This document shows positions 31,994-38,885 of a stretch of 64,000 nt of DNA, piece after piece; within the stretch, counting starts at the first letter, position 1; every line of letters starts with the position of its first letter. This stretch comes from Phycisphaerales bacterium (GTDB lineage: Bacteria > Planctomycetota > Phycisphaerae > Phycisphaerales > UBA1924), in assembly GCA_028289195.1 (NCBI GenBank), contig JANQQR010000001.1:62001-126000 (forward strand), written 5' to 3'. The translations under genes were made by a program, and so were the position numbers. Below the pieces are notes generated by a model. That model had not been told where the DNA came from and made no database searches. It saw only the letters and a program-made list of their open reading frames with translations.

Positions 31994-33202
31994 ATGCCCC
32001 GGCTCCGAGCGATGGCGGCATTGCTGGGGTTGGTGTGCACAGCGATCGCGCTCGCGAAGGACTCTCAGAGCCTCTCGACGTTCCAGAGTCGGAGCTTCCA
32101 GGTTAAGACTGATGTCGATCGCGCCATCGCCATGCCGCTCGCCGAGCACATGGACACGATGTACGCGAGCTATCGCGACCTGCTCCCTGGATTTGCGCCG
32201 CGGAACAGTCAGCGCTCGACGCTGTACGTTCTCTCAGATCAGGGCACCTACCTCGCGACGCTCGCCGAACTGGGCCTTGACGCGAGAAACACCGGCGGCG
32301 TGTTCTTCTGGAGCGCGATTGACTCCGGCCTCGCGACGTGGGTTGAAGATCGCAGCAGGTTCCGTCTGAAAGAGGTGCTCCAGCACGAGGGGTTTCACCA
32401 GTTCGCTCGCACGCACATCGGCGACGGTCTGCCGATCTGGGCGAACGAGGGTCTTGCCGAGTACTTCGGATACGCGATGCTTGTCCGGGGCCGTCTGGAA
32501 CCCCGGCTTGTCCCGTCGCGCCCGCTGCAACGCGTGTCAGACGCGATCTCTCGCGGGATGTACCTCCCGTTCGACGAGCTGCTCCGGATGGACGGGCGTG
32601 AATGGGGGGATCGCGTGCGCTCGGGCGACCCCCGAGCCGCGGTTGCGTACGACCAATCCTGGTCGGTCGTGCACTTCCTGCTGCACGCGGAGAATCGCAA
32701 GTACTCGCGAGCGTTCTTGAAGTTTCTCCAACTCACCTCGACCGGTCTCGACATCGAGCATTCGCTTCAGAGAGCGTTCGGCTCGACCGAGTTCGAGCCG
32801 TTCGAGAGCGCCTGGAAGCGATACATCGCCAGTCTCGAGGCGGATCCTCTGAGCGAGATGGTTGAGCGATTGGCGTTCATGGCCGAGGGCCTCCTCACGC
32901 TGCACCGGCTCGGGGAGGAGGTGGGTTCGATAGAGGAGCTCAAGGCGAAGCTCATAGCGATCGGATTCGAGCAGCGCTTCGGTTCGCACGGCGGCGCGTT
33001 CACGATGAGCGCGGAAGACGAACAGACGTTCGCAGTGCCGGCTCCGGAAGGGAGGCGCAAGCCGATCACACTCGCGCTCGTCCCCGCCAAGAGCGAAGGC
33101 CTCCCGCCGACCATCGAAGTGCGCGGGTTGTCGGCGCGGGTCCGGACGGTGTGGCTCCGTGGGCCCAGCGGCGAGTGGCAAAGCGACGTTGAGATCCGCT
33201 AG
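31994..33202 (+). CDS. secreted HExxH peptidase-like protein
   Basis: This 402-residue protein has a signal peptide (about residues 1-21) and a zinc-peptidase pattern: HEGFH (131-135) followed by NEGLAEYF (151-158), whose Glu residues suit the third ligand of gluzincins. The layout is like the DUF1570 proteins frequent in planctomycetes. It begins four bases after the alaS stop, so it may be co-transcribed. The C-terminal 100 residues are not recognised. The stop TAG shares CTAG with the convergent gene at 33199. Peptidase activity is inferred. Confidence 0.8.
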   Translation: MPRLRAMAALLGLVCTAIALAKDSQSLSTFQSRSFQVKTDVDRAIAMPLAEHMDTMYASYRDLLPGFAPRNSQRSTLYVLSDQGTYLATLAELGLDARNTGGVFFWSAIDSGLATWVEDRSRFRLKEVLQHEGFHQFARTHIGDGLPIWANEGLAEYFGYAMLVRGRLEPRLVPSRPLQRVSDAISRGMYLPFDELLRMDGREWGDRVRSGDPRAAVAYDQSWSVVHFLLHAENRKYSRAFLKFLQLTSTGLDIEHSLQRAFGSTEFEPFESAWKRYIASLEADPLSEMVERLAFMAEGLLTLHRLGEEVGSIEELKAKLIAIGFEQRFGSHGGAFTMSAEDEQTFAVPAPEGRRKPITLALVPAKSEGLPPTIEVRGLSARVRTVWLRGPSGEWQSDVEIR

Positions 33203-33729
33203 TTGTGAACACGCTGGTACGCGACCTCGAACCCGTCCTTGATGTTCCATTCGCTATCGGTTGACTGCACCGTGACGCTCAGCACGCTGCGGTCATCGTT
33301 CACCTCGAAGATGAACCGTGAGGGCTGTTGGGCATAGTCCGGCGACTGGAACACCGCCCGTTTCGGCTCGGACTCGATGAGCACGAATCTGAGCGGAGCA
33401 TCTATCTCGGCCTCCCAGAGCTCCATGCCGGGCGAGAAGTGGCGGAAGCACATCGTCACGTGCTCGCCCTCCTGCTCGATCAGCAGGAGCTCGTAGATCC
33501 GGCGGTCGTTGTCCGGCCATGTGAGGATGAACGAGCCGACCATCGCGCCGCCCTGAGGGGCGATCCAGTGCTCCTGTCCACGGCCTCCGAACAACTCGCC
33601 CTCCCAGGAGCCTGCGATAAACGCCAGAGCGTCGACCTTCGCTTCCACGGGTTCGGAATTGCGGGCGTGAGCAAGGGGCAGGAGCGCGAGGGCGACCCCC
33701 GCGATGACGGTCAGTGAGAATCGGCGCAT
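33199..33729 (-). CDS. secreted protein of a DUF6265-like type
   Basis: The 176-residue protein has a signal peptide (about residues 1-22, ending at AHA) and one compact domain that starts FIAGSWEGELFGGRGQEHW and continues GGAMVGSFILTW and YELLLIEQEGEHV. This is the pattern of the DUF6265 family, a lipocalin-like fold of unknown role. Its ATG overlaps the stop of the upstream VOC gene by one base (TAATG), so it is translated as part of that unit. Confidence 0.75.
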   Translation of the reverse strand: MRRFSLTVIAGVALALLPLAHARNSEPVEAKVDALAFIAGSWEGELFGGRGQEHWIAPQGGAMVGSFILTWPDNDRRIYELLLIEQEGEHVTMCFRHFSPGMELWEAEIDAPLRFVLIESEPKRAVFQSPDYAQQPSRFIFEVNDDRSVLSVTVQSTDSEWNIKDGFEVAYQRVHN

Positions 33730-34205
33730 TACTCTGGATCTCCGTAGCCGGACGCGTGGCCGGCGAGCCTGATCATGTTGCCGTCAGGATCGTGGAAGTC
33801 GGCGAGTTCCACAACGCCGGGGATGCGGAGCGTCGGGCCGAGGAACTCGACACCCTTGGATTCCAGCGTGGCGCGGGCGTGATCGATGTCAGTCACGCCG
33901 ATGTTGAACGACGCGGTGCCCGAGCCTCCCGCCTCGTCGACGACGCCGAGACCGATAGTGACGCCGCGGATACCCACGTCGATCCTCGCCCAGCGCAGCT
34001 GGTCGTTCCGCTCCTGGAGCGAGAAGCCGAGCGTGTCGGTGTAGAACGCGATCGCGCGATCGAGATCCTCGACGCCGAGCTGGACGAGGAGGGTGGGCTG
34101 CCAGCGGACCCGCTCGGTCTGTGCGCTCTTGGGCCCTGCGAGCGCAACCCAGGCGCCCGCGATCGATGCGCAGGCGATGCTCACAACAATGATGAGATTC
34201 TTCAT
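33729..34205 (-). CDS. exported VOC-superfamily protein
   Basis: This 158-residue protein has a hydrophobic N-terminus (about residues 1-24, signal peptide or anchor) and one vicinal-oxygen-chelate domain: QLGVEDLDRAIAFYTDTLGFSL, later GVTDIDHARATLESKGVEF and DFHDPDGNMIRL. The family includes glyoxalases, dioxygenases and antibiotic-binding proteins. The start is set by AGGAAGG before the ATG at 34205. An exported VOC protein next to a cytoplasmic paralogue is unusual. Confidence 0.88.
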   Translation of the reverse strand: MKNLIIVVSIACASIAGAWVALAGPKSAQTERVRWQPTLLVQLGVEDLDRAIAFYTDTLGFSLQERNDQLRWARIDVGIRGVTIGLGVVDEAGGSGTASFNIGVTDIDHARATLESKGVEFLGPTLRIPGVVELADFHDPDGNMIRLAGHASGYGDPE

Positions 34206-34231
34206 CGGTCGGTCCTTCCTGTTCTGGAGTG

Positions 34232-34609
34232 CTACTTCTGAAGCTCCTGGAAGAGCATGTGCTTGTTGCCGTCGGGATCGAAGAACGTCGCCAGCTTGAC
34301 GAGGTCCGGGATGGTCATGGTCTCCCCGTCGAAGCGCACATCCTTGGATTCGAGCGTGCCCCGCGCGGCATCGATGTTCTTCACGCCCCAAGTCAGCGTC
34401 GCTCCGCCGGCGGCGTCGACCGATTCGCGCTGGGCGAGCCCGACGTTGACGTGCTCGACGGGCGAGGACAGCTCTGCCCAGGCGATCTCGTCGACCTTGT
34501 AGAGCAGTGAGAGCCCGAGGACGTCCGTGTACCACGCGATCGAGGCGTCCAGATCGGAGACCCCGATCGAGCAGGTGAGGCCTCCGTTGTATCCCAGCGA
34601 ATCAGCCAT
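34232..34609 (-). CDS. VOC-superfamily protein
   Basis: This 125-residue protein is a single VOC domain without signal peptide: GVSDLDASIAWYTDVLGLSL and FFDPDGNKHMLFQEL are diagnostic. It is similar to the next gene over its whole domain, so the two arose by duplication. GAGAAAGGA precedes the ATG. The promoter region overlaps the palindrome at 34650-34670 shared with the divergent regulator, which suggests control by it. Substrate unknown. Confidence 0.88.
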   Translation of the reverse strand: MADSLGYNGGLTCSIGVSDLDASIAWYTDVLGLSLLYKVDEIAWAELSSPVEHVNVGLAQRESVDAAGGATLTWGVKNIDAARGTLESKDVRFDGETMTIPDLVKLATFFDPDGNKHMLFQELQK

Positions 34610-34640: not shown

Positions 34641-34668
34641 TTGGAATCGTTTGTATATCAGATATACT
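34641..34668 (+). promoter_or_regulatory. promoter of the HxlR-like regulator
   Basis: TTGGAA (34641-34646), a 16-base spacer and TATACT (34663-34668) form a good promoter. Its start point would fall at or next to the ATG at 34676, so the mRNA would be leaderless. The -10 lies inside the palindrome, which fits autorepression. Confidence 0.55.
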
Positions 34669-34670
34669 AA
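34650..34670. promoter_or_regulatory. palindromic operator candidate
   Basis: GTATAT-CAG-ATATAC (34653-34667) is a perfect dyad that extends with two more matching pairs on each side after one mismatch. It is AT-rich in a GC-rich region and lies exactly between the divergent VOC and HxlR-like genes. Operators of HxlR and related winged-helix repressors are short dyads of this kind. It covers the regulator's -10 element. Confidence 0.6.
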
Positions 34671-34675
34671 TGGCA

Positions 34676-35281
34676 ATGGGAGCCGATGCAAGCGAATTCA
34701 CTCCGGATCCGGCCCTGCCCCTGCTGACCCAGCACCGCTGGGCGCTGCCCGTCCTCGCGCAGCTCCTCGAGGGCTCGATGGGCCTGGACGCGCGCCGGGG
34801 CGGGGGCGCCCGCCTCATCGTGCTCAGGAACCGCCTCGAGGCCCCTCTGCCGTCGGTCAAGCGTGCCCTCGAGGGCCTGGCGGAGCAGGGCTGGGTGGAG
34901 GCCAATCCGGGCGACGGTCACCCTCTTCGCCCCGAATACCGCCTGACGCGCGAGGGCATCCTCGTCGCCGAGGCGGCGGAACAGGTGGTGGCCCGTGTGC
35001 GAGGCCTGGGCCTCGCAGAGGCGCTGACACGCAAGTGGTCGATCCCGACGACCCTGGCCATCGCCGGGGATCGGCACCGGTTCAACGACATCAAGTCGGC
35101 CCTGCCGGGCGTGACGCCGCGGGCGTTGGTGATAGCTCTGGACGATCTGGAATCCCGTGCGCTCATCGAGCGCTCGACCGAGGGGACTCGCACGCCGCGC
35201 CCGCGCTACGCCCTGACGGAGCGGGTTCTCCCGGTGATCGAGCCGCTGGCGGGGCTCAACGCCTCCCTCTCGGCGGCGTAG
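34676..35281 (+). CDS. tandem winged-helix HxlR-like regulator
   Basis: This 201-residue protein contains two related winged-helix domains. The first (about residues 15-105) reads HRWALPVLAQLLEG, then LPSVKRALEGLAEQGWVEA and RPEYRLTREG; the second (about 115-195) reads RKWSIPTTLAIAGDRHRFNDIK, then LVIALDDLESRALIERS and RPRYALTERV. Each half fits the HxlR pattern, normally one domain per chain that dimerises. I choose the second ATG (34676) because a -10 element ends seven bases before it and no ribosome-binding site exists; 34670 is the alternative. Confidence 0.85.
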   Translation: MGADASEFTPDPALPLLTQHRWALPVLAQLLEGSMGLDARRGGGARLIVLRNRLEAPLPSVKRALEGLAEQGWVEANPGDGHPLRPEYRLTREGILVAEAAEQVVARVRGLGLAEALTRKWSIPTTLAIAGDRHRFNDIKSALPGVTPRALVIALDDLESRALIERSTEGTRTPRPRYALTERVLPVIEPLAGLNASLSAA

Positions 35282-35284
35282 CTC

Positions 35285-36238
35285 TCACATGATCGACAGG
35301 CGCTGCTCTGTTTCGGCCAGGAGCGACTCGGCCTGCGCGACGCAGTCCATCGCCTCGTCGAACGCGTGGTCGGCCGATGCGGACCACGCCCGGTTCACCA
35401 TGCGCTCGGCTCTCGCGAAGTGATCCATCAGAGAGGCGTAGCCGGAGAGCCCGAAGGTGGCGATCAGCTTCGGCCTGCACGCCACGAAATCAACCATCTG
35501 TTCCTGCTGCAGCCGACCCAGCGTGGCGACGACCTCGGCCATCTTCCCTCGCTCGTCCGGGATGACGCTCAGGCCCTCGCGGAGCTCGCGAACCGCCGCG
35601 TGCGCCGAGGTGAGGATGGACATCGGATCAAGCCGATCGCCGGATTCTCCGTCACCGCCTTCAGCGAGCTGCGCGGCGATCGCCTTCTTGTTCGCCGAGC
35701 GAACGAGGAACGCGCCCGCGACCAGCCCGACCATCGAGATCGCGAACACCCAGCTGTGGCGCCAGCGTCCGATGTCGAACGAATCAAGGCGAACGGCGAC
35801 GACCGGTCGCGACGCGGGAAACGCCTCAGGGTCGCTCACTGCATGCAGCATCTCGAGCATCGCCGGCGTGAGCGGGTCGCCGGAGCGCCCGACGGAATTC
35901 ATCGACTCCCGAGACGCCAACAACTGCTCGCCCGTTGGCTGCGCGTCGACCGGTGCGAGCACCAATTCCTCGTCCGGGACGACCGGTGGCGGCGGTGGGT
36001 CGAGGAGCGGGGCCGCGGCCTGTTCCGCCTGCGCCGCGTCGATCTGGCTCTGCAATTCGGCAACGGTCGCACCGAACTCCGGGTGCGCCCTGGGATCGAA
36101 GCTCCCGGCGGTGCCCCCGAGCGCCAATCCGGCGGTGTCGGTGCCCGGCGCGGGGAGGCTGACAAAGTAGCTCGTCGCGGCCGCGAGGAGGCCGACGATG
36201 AGGCTGATCGTGATGATGAGGTTGCCGAGGTGTTTCAT
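35285..36238 (-). CDS. bitopic membrane protein of unknown function
   Basis: This 317-residue protein has a hydrophobic helix near residues 5-28 (LIITISLIVGLLAAATSYF), a Pro-rich extracytoplasmic region with LLDPPPPPVVPDEE, a second helix near 163-180 (VFAISMVGLVAGAFLV), and a cytoplasmic helical domain with AVRELREGLSVIPDERGKM. No family is recognised. The ATG at 36238 is 25 bases downstream of the OPT stop, so the two are probably co-transcribed and may work together. Confidence 0.75.
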   Translation of the reverse strand: MKHLGNLIITISLIVGLLAAATSYFVSLPAPGTDTAGLALGGTAGSFDPRAHPEFGATVAELQSQIDAAQAEQAAAPLLDPPPPPVVPDEELVLAPVDAQPTGEQLLASRESMNSVGRSGDPLTPAMLEMLHAVSDPEAFPASRPVVAVRLDSFDIGRWRHSWVFAISMVGLVAGAFLVRSANKKAIAAQLAEGGDGESGDRLDPMSILTSAHAAVRELREGLSVIPDERGKMAEVVATLGRLQQEQMVDFVACRPKLIATFGLSGYASLMDHFARAERMVNRAWSASADHAFDEAMDCVAQAESLLAETEQRLSIM

Positions 36239-36263
36239 GTTCGCGATTCTCCGAGCCGAAGCC

Positions 36264-38885
36264 TCATCCCGTGAGCAGCACAACAGCATTGGCGCTCAGC
36301 CCGAGCAGGGCGTCGCCGACGATGAACCCCGCCGCAAGCGGCACGCCCCATTCCTCCGCCCAGCGCTTGCCCATCGTGCCCGCGACGACCATGTTCACGA
36401 TGCATCCGATCCCGTAGGTCGCGATGTAGATCATCGGCAGGTACATCGACAGCCCGATCAGCACACCGAGCCCGCTGAACGAGCCGAGGCCGAGCAGCGC
36501 ACCCAGGATCGCTCCCAGTCCGTACAGGCCGTAGGGCATCGCCCCGCCCTGCACGCCCGTGATGATCGCCTGCAGCGCCTGGGCCTGCGGCGCAACCGTG
36601 TCGGTGCCTGCGCCCATCGGGACGCCGAACTTCTGCATGTTCCCGCCCGCGATCACGAGGATCACGGTCATGGTGATGACCGGCCCGATGGCCGTCGCGA
36701 TCAGTTCCACCGTCTGCTGGCGCCGCGGCTGAGCGCCGACGATATAGCCGGTCCGCAGGTCGGCCATCATGTCCGCCGCGCACGTGATCGCGACGCAGAG
36801 CGCGGCGCCGATCAGCACGGCCCCAAGCACACTGCCGGGGCCCGAGAGAAGGAGTATCAGCACGACGGTGAGCAGCGCCATGCCCGAGATCGGCGACCAG
36901 TCGGTCATACCCGTGCACTGAGCGATGATGATGCCGGCGAACCAGATCCACAGGCCTCCGATCAACGCGATGAGACCGGCCCGGAGGTGCGGGTCCAGGT
37001 GGGAGAGCCACCCCGGCTTGTCGGCGCTGAGCCCCGAAACGGCCTCGTTCTTGTCGACCGGCGACGCGTTCGTGAACGCGTCCAGCGTGTCCTGGTTTGC
37101 GAACGCGAGCACATACCCGTTGTGCTTGAACGTCAGGTCAGCGCATTCGATCCGCTCGCCGGTGATGGGATCTGTCGTGTTGACCGATTGTGTGCTCGTG
37201 AAGTCCGCCGCGACGAACAGGAGCACCAGAGCCGACACCGCCGCGACGATGAGCACGCGGAGTCCGAGTTCGTCTCTCCCGGTCTTGCCGCCCTTGCGAC
37301 CCGCGGCAGCGATCGATCGGATCGCCTCCTTGATGGCGGGAAGCGAGGCGATCACTCCCATCATCGCGCCGCCGAGCAGAAGGCCGATGCCGAGCGGGCG
37401 GTTGATGTTCCCGTAACCCCAATTGGCGGCGCCGTCTGCCGTGACCGTACCGGGCATGAAGCCCAGGTTGTAGAGAACCGGGTTGATGATCAGATACGCG
37501 AGCACGCCGCCGGCCAGCACGAACAGGCCGGCGCGACCGGAGAGGTAGCCCGCCCCGAGCGCGAACGGCGCGATGGCGAAGATGAGCTGCGCTTCTGCCG
37601 GGAGCCCGAGCCAGCGACCAACGTCCACGCGATCGTCCTGGATGATCAGATCCGGCACGCCGTTGCGGTCGTTGTCGACATAGCGATCGAGCACCGGGTC
37701 TTCCTGGGGCGACTCGGGCGTGCCGATGCCGTTGTATTCAAAGTCGACCGGCTCCTGCTCGGCATCGATGCGAGCGGGGAGGCGGATCTGCAGATCGGCG
37801 TAGCCGAACGCGGGGTCGGCCGCCCAGCCTGCCTTTGTGTTCCGGAGGCTCTCCCACGAGCCCTCGCCCGAGATGGCCAGGTGCACGCGCTTGGCGAGTT
37901 CGAGCGGATAGCCCGCATCGAGCAGGCGCTGCCGATCGGTCGGATCCTCGGCCGAGAGCGCCAGGGCGCGGACGCCCTGCGCGCCGACAGCTGCGACACG
38001 TGCCTCGAGGAGCTTGACGTCTTCGACGCATTCGAGGCACTCGTCCGTGCTCATCGACTGCTTCGAGCCGGGGCTCAGCTTCTTCTGTGCATCAACCAGC
38101 TCGAACGCCAGGCGCCCGTGGGCGGCGATGTCGGCGAGCTCGTCCGGCAGAGCCTCCTGCTGGATCCACGAATCGATCGCCTGCGTGAGGAGCATGTCGG
38201 CGCGGCTGATCCGTTCTTCACGGACGAGTTGCTCAAGGTCGCCGAGTGCCGCGGGGGACGTGATCTGGGGCAGCTGCGCGGGCGCTGTGATAACCGCCGA
38301 GATGACAATGCCCAGGACCAGCACGATGGCCTTTTTCGCGCCCGCGCCCGGCGAGCGGAGGATGGCTCCGACCGCCGTCCCCGATGGGAAGCGGAGGCGT
38401 TCGATGTCGATCATCTGCTTGCGCAGCGGCACGATGAACGCCCCACCGAGCACGGCTCCGGCGACGCACGCGAGCGTGATGAGCCAGAAGTCAACCGAAG
38501 AGACCGTGAGCTGGTACCCGAGCAGCAGGAGCACGGGCACGGTGAAGATCACGCCGGAGTTCGGCGTGTTCACCGCCGAGCCGACGGTCTGCATGATGTT
38601 GATCTCGAGGATCGATCCGCGCCGCAGCAGCCCGCGGAGTACACCGAAACCGAGCACCGCGGCGATCGAAGACCCGACGATCGTGAAGCCGATCTTCAGG
38701 CCCGCGTAGGTGATCGCGGCGTTCATGACGGCTCCGACGATGACGCCGAAGATCACAGCGCTGAGGGTGATCTCTCGATACCTCGTCTGGAAGAGCCCGG
38801 CGCCGGATGCAGGCTTGCGCGTCGCATCGATCTGGTCGGGCGCGTTCGCTGGTCCCTCATCGGGACCGGACGGGGTGTCGGCCAT
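36264..38885 (-). CDS. OPT-family transporter with two soluble insertions
   Basis: This 873-residue membrane protein is of the oligopeptide transporter (OPT) family: FQTRYREITLSAVIFGVIVG, LKIGFTIVGSSIAA, then FPSGTAVGAILRS and the C-terminal half with FIVGDALLGLSANAVVLL. Two soluble insertions interrupt it. Residues about 205-425 form a domain with a DNDRNGVPD loop (404-412) of the calcium-binding type. Residues about 563-625 include CADLTFKHNGYVLAF, similar to a YHS domain. An AAGGAGG site precedes the ATG. OPT members carry peptides or metal chelates; the substrate is unknown. Confidence 0.9.
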   Translation of the reverse strand: MADTPSGPDEGPANAPDQIDATRKPASGAGLFQTRYREITLSAVIFGVIVGAVMNAAITYAGLKIGFTIVGSSIAAVLGFGVLRGLLRRGSILEINIMQTVGSAVNTPNSGVIFTVPVLLLLGYQLTVSSVDFWLITLACVAGAVLGGAFIVPLRKQMIDIERLRFPSGTAVGAILRSPGAGAKKAIVLVLGIVISAVITAPAQLPQITSPAALGDLEQLVREERISRADMLLTQAIDSWIQQEALPDELADIAAHGRLAFELVDAQKKLSPGSKQSMSTDECLECVEDVKLLEARVAAVGAQGVRALALSAEDPTDRQRLLDAGYPLELAKRVHLAISGEGSWESLRNTKAGWAADPAFGYADLQIRLPARIDAEQEPVDFEYNGIGTPESPQEDPVLDRYVDNDRNGVPDLIIQDDRVDVGRWLGLPAEAQLIFAIAPFALGAGYLSGRAGLFVLAGGVLAYLIINPVLYNLGFMPGTVTADGAANWGYGNINRPLGIGLLLGGAMMGVIASLPAIKEAIRSIAAAGRKGGKTGRDELGLRVLIVAAVSALVLLFVAADFTSTQSVNTTDPITGERIECADLTFKHNGYVLAFANQDTLDAFTNASPVDKNEAVSGLSADKPGWLSHLDPHLRAGLIALIGGLWIWFAGIIIAQCTGMTDWSPISGMALLTVVLILLLSGPGSVLGAVLIGAALCVAITCAADMMADLRTGYIVGAQPRRQQTVELIATAIGPVITMTVILVIAGGNMQKFGVPMGAGTDTVAPQAQALQAIITGVQGGAMPYGLYGLGAILGALLGLGSFSGLGVLIGLSMYLPMIYIATYGIGCIVNMVVAGTMGKRWAEEWGVPLAAGFIVGDALLGLSANAVVLLTG

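Follow-up and report, generated by a model that had tools for sequence, protein, structure and literature searches.

Here we report a natural HxlR-type regulator that carries two winged-helix units in one chain and that probably works as a single-chain pseudo-dimer, acting as a local autorepressor of a VOC (glyoxalase-fold) operon at a dyad in the stretch that separates its gene from this divergent operon. The regulator is encoded in the window, the 64,000-nucleotide stretch of Phycisphaerales DNA that was analysed, and belongs to a branch of two-unit proteins that is widespread, has an operator that can be recognised and keeps one recurring partner gene. Among the HxlR regulators cited here, those of solved structure are symmetric dimers whose chains carry one unit each. 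The branch provides a natural test of the effects of a fusion: do the two halves take on separate roles, does the operator become asymmetric, and is a single molecule enough? The branch also supplies a compact pair of putative repressor and operator for study, and a clue to what an uncharacterised VOC family does.

The regulator gene (34,670–35,281, forward strand) is an open reading frame of 203 codons, supported by a Pfam HxlR match and an AlphaFold2 model. A second in-frame ATG at 34,676, the start used in the sequence-only reading, would yield a protein of 201 residues. A promoter-like element for the regulator, TTGGAA-16-TATACT (34,641–34,668, forward strand), ends at 34,668 and would place the transcript start near 34,675, so that translation may begin leaderless from this second ATG.

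Unit 1 (residues 19–112; 34,724–35,005) is a winged helix that was modelled alone, and HxlR-family chains top its structural comparison. It contains a predicted recognition helix (residues 60–72; 34,847–34,885; assigned by DSSP on the model) and a highly conserved wing (residues 74–93; 34,889–34,948) with the family consensus NPGYGHPLRPEYxLT. A three-residue joint (residues 113–115; 35,006–35,014), likewise defined by DSSP, leads from the last helix of unit 1 to the first helix of unit 2. Unit 2 (residues 114–203; 35,009–35,278) is a canonical HxlR winged helix by its Pfam HxlR and HypR matches, and has its own predicted recognition helix (residues 150–162; 35,117–35,155; DSSP on the model); all these features lie on the forward strand. 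The units repeat two motifs, HRWALPVL...RPEYRLT in unit 1 and RKWSIPTT...RPRYALT in unit 2. The RP-x-Y-x-LT pattern proposed from the sequence is exact in both units, and the repeat of the tryptophan–proline motif also stands, but its proposed W-x-P-x-L spacing is really W-x-x-P and the following leucine is absent from unit 2 of the window protein.

Profile comparison of the two halves, structure prediction and Pfam matches across relatives agree with the original proposal of two HxlR-type units in one chain. Profiles of unit 1 and unit 2 (80 rows each) aligned over 90 columns with an hhalign probability of 98.9% and a pairwise E value of 1.2e-17, a score to which the common winged-helix fold may contribute in part, as the halves were compared only with each other; an alternative cut of the same rows gave 99.1%. 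The AlphaFold2 model of the whole chain, built with 80 sequences, has a pLDDT of 91.4 and a pTM of 0.88, and each unit in it consists of three helices, then two strands, and ends in another helix. The proposal would have failed had the first half not folded as a winged helix; modelled alone, this half is a winged helix (pLDDT 84.4) whose best matches are HxlR-family chains. Profile comparison and structure together rule out a repeat arising by chance or as a composition artefact.

Against Pfam HxlR (PF01638; cut-off 20.8), the whole protein scores 51.6 bits, unit 2 alone 39.4 bits and unit 1 alone 16.4 bits, the last being under the cut-off. The best Pfam match of the first half alone is HVO_A0261_N (PF25213), at 33.6 bits under a cut-off of 35, which the whole protein narrowly exceeds at 35.1 bits through a match in unit 1. 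All 80 full-length relatives match Pfam HxlR, and at E ≤ 0.01 their first halves match HxlR in 74 and HVO_A0261_N in 65 of 80 cases. Both units have the HxlR fold, a winged helix with flanking N- and C-terminal helices. The unit 2 model (residues 111–203) superposes on HypR with a Z score of 12.3 over 93 residues (rmsd 2.0), and unit 1 modelled alone superposes on 3df8 with a Z score of 12.2 over 96 residues (rmsd 2.6) and equally on QsrR (Z 12.2). MarR and ArsR chains follow closely for unit 1, with Z values within 1 counting as ties, and structural similarity by itself is therefore not enough to assign this unit to a family. The two best solved relatives of the first-half profile are 1yyv (5.1e-6), which is also among the HxlR matches of the whole protein, and YdzF (6e-6). 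We therefore prefer an HxlR origin of unit 1 on sequence and model comparisons, although it is not proven and HVO_A0261_N competes in Pfam. That unit 1 is a mere generic winged helix was considered, as the whole-chain model had given MntR/DtxR (Z ~10), and was rejected, because the unit modelled alone matched HxlR chains best and its profile agrees. Having two units rather than the one unit per chain of HxlR proteins, the protein is a variant of that family and not a typical member. A Foldseek search with the whole-chain model returned no solved chain at E ≤ 0.001, the first row being an unrelated TFIIIC subunit, and neither the regulator nor the two VOC reading frames matched an NCBIfam family at its cut-off.

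The window protein has no cysteine. Among relatives, a single position carries cysteine in more than one fifth of the rows: residue 103, which lies in the closing helix of unit 1 and is cysteine in 51 of 80 rows and alanine in the window protein. Some members of the family may use it for sensing.

The sequence-only reading had called for a search for other two-unit members, and many exist. The source assembly (94% complete) contains one PF01638 match. A match spanning both units occurs in 32 of the 101 related genomes sampled, including the source genome, and a further 7 have one-unit matches only. In public genomes, 537 of 553 stretches matching the motif G[YH]GHP[LM]RPE encode a relative, and the best 80 of the 537 were examined as loci. 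Wing 1 is conserved by construction in these 80 loci, as they were retrieved by its motif; in set A1 (30 rows), which was retrieved without it, mean pairwise identity is 0.76 for wing 1 versus 0.35 for wing 2. A single open frame of 169–207 residues is present in 79 of the 80 loci, the remaining one (L082) having an early stop; L082 was excluded from sets A2, A3 and A4 and from the tree and was retained in the operator counts. The placed rows span 11 phyla, among them Planctomycetota (34), Pseudomonadota (23) and Actinomycetota (4), with 7 rows not placed, and named hosts of relatives include Calidithermus and Kribbella. Seven relatives (L006, L010, L014, L015, L021, L024 and L029) showed apparent stops, but in all of them the reading frame closes where the match ends or shortly before it, which leaves the genes whole. 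In five of the six family f4 relatives examined, of genus g64 (L006, L010, L014, L021 and L024, not L023), the frame extends upstream of the usual methionine, with an Arg-Arg or arginine-rich stretch plus a hydrophobic one that resembles an export-like N-terminus or an overlapping small gene. Viral contigs gave 21 matches to the motif pattern and no relative. The existing annotation of two relatives on plasmids is winged helix-turn-helix transcriptional regulator.

The recurring partner is a divergent VOC gene. In the window it encodes 125 residues (34,232–34,609, reverse strand; Pfam Glyoxalase, 45.7 bits) and lies in the same place in relatives: a VOC homologue is found upstream on the opposite strand in 79 of the best 80 of 537 loci, the upstream sequence of the other (L054) being too short to show whether one is present. 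The start of the VOC match lies less than 400 bases from that of the regulator in 76 loci and farther in L035, L041 and L049. In the related-genome set, 28 of 29 relatives have the VOC neighbour; this set and the 80 loci overlap in some genomes, and two further two-unit matches fall outside the 29. The exceptional locus, L017, has a two-unit regulator with no VOC match within 1,500 bases upstream and no upstream TATA dyad. Target and site were perhaps lost together there, but one case proves little, and single-TATA sites occur also beside intact VOC genes.

Further genes follow in the VOC direction. A second VOC protein, of 158 residues from an internal ATG that we chose as its start (33,729–34,205, reverse strand), has its Pfam Glyoxalase match in the C-terminal part of a longer reading frame (33,729–34,535); its hydrophobic N-terminus suggests a possibly exported copy, and a close match to this gene is next in line in L034 and L098. 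Beyond it lies a DUF6265 gene (33,199–33,729, reverse strand; PF19780, 84.7 bits), homologues of which occur upstream of the regulator in 14 of the 29 relatives. On the other side of the regulator, a reading frame of 334 residues (35,285–36,289, reverse strand) has no Pfam match at E ≤ 0.01. The metal ligands of glyoxalase I are conserved histidine, glutamate and glutamine residues. An alignment of the VOC proteins (78 rows, local matches) has no histidine among the positions conserved in at least 80% and has methionine at position 118, where glutamate is expected; lacking a conserved histidine, the protein is unlikely to have a metal site of the glyoxalase I type.

The predicted operator, GTATATCAGATATAC (34,653–34,667), is an inverted repeat with 7-base arms and a 1-base centre that is conserved in relatives, ends 2 bases before the first ATG (34,670) and is overlapped by the second hexamer of the promoter-like element. 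This element came from a consensus scan that found 1 versus a shuffle mean of 0.1, which by itself is no evidence of function. The pattern GTATA-N5-TATAC, with at most 2 mismatches of 10, occurs in 56 of 80 intergenic stretches versus 2 of 80 downstream controls and 5 of 80 shuffles. The source assembly holds no second copy at up to 1 mismatch, the window site being the single occurrence, so the regulon looks local; the backwards control pattern is also rare (twice per strand in the same assembly), and the single copy is therefore only what rarity allows and not significant alone. Expectation-maximisation alignment of 81 sites gave approximately GGTnC-n2-TTTGTATAGTnnCTATACTTT-n3-GTCAA, with the last spacing varying. 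GTCA follows the dyad in 61 of the 81 sites, and the window equivalent of GTCAA is degenerate (GGCAA). Judged by its sequence, GTCAA, the complement of TTGAC, may serve the VOC promoter as its −35 box, in which case the spacer would contain the dyad and the −10 box would lie near the left half of the dyad.

The two half-sites are not equally kept. The TATA nearer the VOC gene is intact in 77 of the 81 sites and the other in 51. As the site alignment could favour one side, the halves were recounted with GTCAA alone as the anchor: among 70 stretches, both halves are present in 36, the left only in 22, the right only in 3 and neither in 9. In this count, GTCAA is absent from 11 of the 81 stretches, including that of the window. 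Stretches with more than one GTCAA were anchored on the copy preceded by the highest AT content, which in some of the rows with neither half is not the copy beside the site. Part of the left-only rows are related sphingomonads. On the protein tree, in which 15 of 77 inner branches are well supported, the right half-site changes state at least 10 times and the left 3 times (L076, with no recognisable site, was excluded from these counts), and loss of the right half-site seems to recur. This loss covaries with unit 2 positions 135, 121, 158 and 159 and unit 1 positions 13, 10 and 51, although the descent-corrected test comes down to 2 independent pairs and has no power. A possible reading, less likely than not, is that this is a natural single-chain HxlR whose halves read different half-sites. 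In this reading, fusion would have freed the heads from identity and given rise to an intrinsically directional operator within a family otherwise made of symmetric dimers, one half-site and one wing being fixed and the other having drifted repeatedly. A VOC −10 box over the left half could alternatively hold that half steady and produce the same asymmetry.

The mechanism that we infer, in its binding, its repression, its one chain per site and its inducer, would run as follows. Units 1 and 2 would pack against each other by their terminal helices in the manner of the two subunits in HxlR dimers, and the single chain would then offer two recognition helices about one helical turn apart and bind the predicted dyad that separates its gene from the VOC gene on the opposite strand. 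As the dyad overlaps likely promoter elements of both genes, binding would repress the VOC operon and the synthesis of the regulator itself, and release would probably be brought about by a small molecule handled in the VOC pathway. A matching dyad is present at the regulator's own promoter. The half-site centres lie 10 bp apart, one helical turn, which fits the 34.8 Å between the recognition helices of HxlR, described in an excerpt of its report as bound to DNA as a dimer formed through helices 1 and 5 (PMC7835342). Half-sites one turn apart, together with the working helix 5–helix 1 fusions of the engineered sensor FAsor described in the same excerpt, favour one chain per dyad. The sequence-only reading had likewise suggested that the protein might read its dyad as a monomer; the partner gene, the operator with its unequal halves and the breadth of the family went unmentioned in it.

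This picture has to be weighed against readings that distribute the DNA contacts differently. The blocks GGTnC, TATA, TATA and GTCAA are conserved roughly one turn apart, as they would be if two-unit chains dimerised and placed four winged helices on an operator of ~35 bp, the inner pair reading TATA/TATA and the outer pair GGTnC and GTCAA; but two identical chains in a symmetric pair would be expected to favour an extended site that is symmetric too, yet the outer blocks differ, and GTCAA is more simply read as a −35 box, so that we regard this arrangement as unlikely. The one-chain reading itself is weakened by the 30 of 81 operators that have no intact second TATA, so that many members do not read a clean dyad. 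This degeneracy of one half-site in many loci, like the score of window unit 1 under the Pfam HxlR cut-off, might indicate that one unit only binds DNA and that the other has become a dimerisation or sensing domain with its fold kept. Such a division of labour is very unlikely in view of unit 1, which is the more conserved, above all in its wing (0.76 versus 0.35 in A1), and keeps its predicted recognition helix.

The direction of regulation is a separate matter. HxlR is named an activator in its structure entries, so the repression reading draws its support from the position of the site, and the regulator might activate the VOC operon as HxlR does its own. The dyad, however, lies between the −35-like box and the VOC gene, where, judging from this position, a bound protein would normally block polymerase, and activation is distinctly unlikely. 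We thus retain repression by a single-chain pseudo-dimer as the working mechanism.

On a Pseudomonas aeruginosa plasmid, a VOC gene and a two-unit regulator (L113:2527–3528; NZ_CP131793.1, ~220774–221775) are flanked by qnrVC1/intI1 on one side and by an IS110-family transposase, qacEdelta1 and sul1 on the other. The pair is bounded by GTTAGGC and GCCTAAC, which are attC-like, and is apparently a two-gene integron cassette. Its intergenic site reads GGTTCG...GTATAGTTGC...GTCAAG. Among 72,556 plasmid records searched for near matches only, one contains at least 80% of the cassette.

Double-HxlR architectures are listed in Pfam or InterPro. A word search of an open-access library, weak evidence of absence, turned up no article that describes two-unit HxlR proteins or an HxlR gene next to a VOC gene. 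The window protein shares PF01638 and a winged-helix fold with terminal helices with HxlR and with the MarR/DUF24 regulators YodB, CatR, HypR and QsrR, all of which have one unit per chain and dimerise. CatE has a VOC fold. The regulons of YodB, CatR and QsrR include ring-cleavage dioxygenases such as CatE, according to an excerpt of PMC6798810. In the same excerpt, YodB, CatR, HypR and QsrR sense through cysteine, whereas the window protein has none and, lacking the conserved N-terminal sensing cysteine, falls outside this redox subgroup; their thiol switch cannot apply to it.

Two-winged-helix single chains are already known and serve as precedents, as far as the excerpted reports describe them. 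FAsor is an engineered HxlR–cpYFP–HxlR in which the fluorescent protein connects helix 5 of one copy to helix 1 of the other, and its fusions remained formaldehyde-responsive, so the HxlR chain ends are close enough for fusion (PMC7835342, excerpt). Like the window protein, it has two HxlR units per chain joined from helix 5 to helix 1; it differs in being man-made, with identical copies and a reporter between them, whereas the window protein has a three-residue joint and diverged halves. SarS of Staphylococcus aureus, a member of the SarA family, carries two homologous halves, both winged helices, in one natural chain and is described in the excerpted text as a non-dimer (PMC10715151). Its structure, 1p4x, stands at rank 43 in the Foldseek listing, with a weak whole-chain match (9% identity, TM 0.32). 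The window protein has the same architecture of two homologous winged helices per chain, but SarS is a chain of 250 residues with SarA/MarR kinship.
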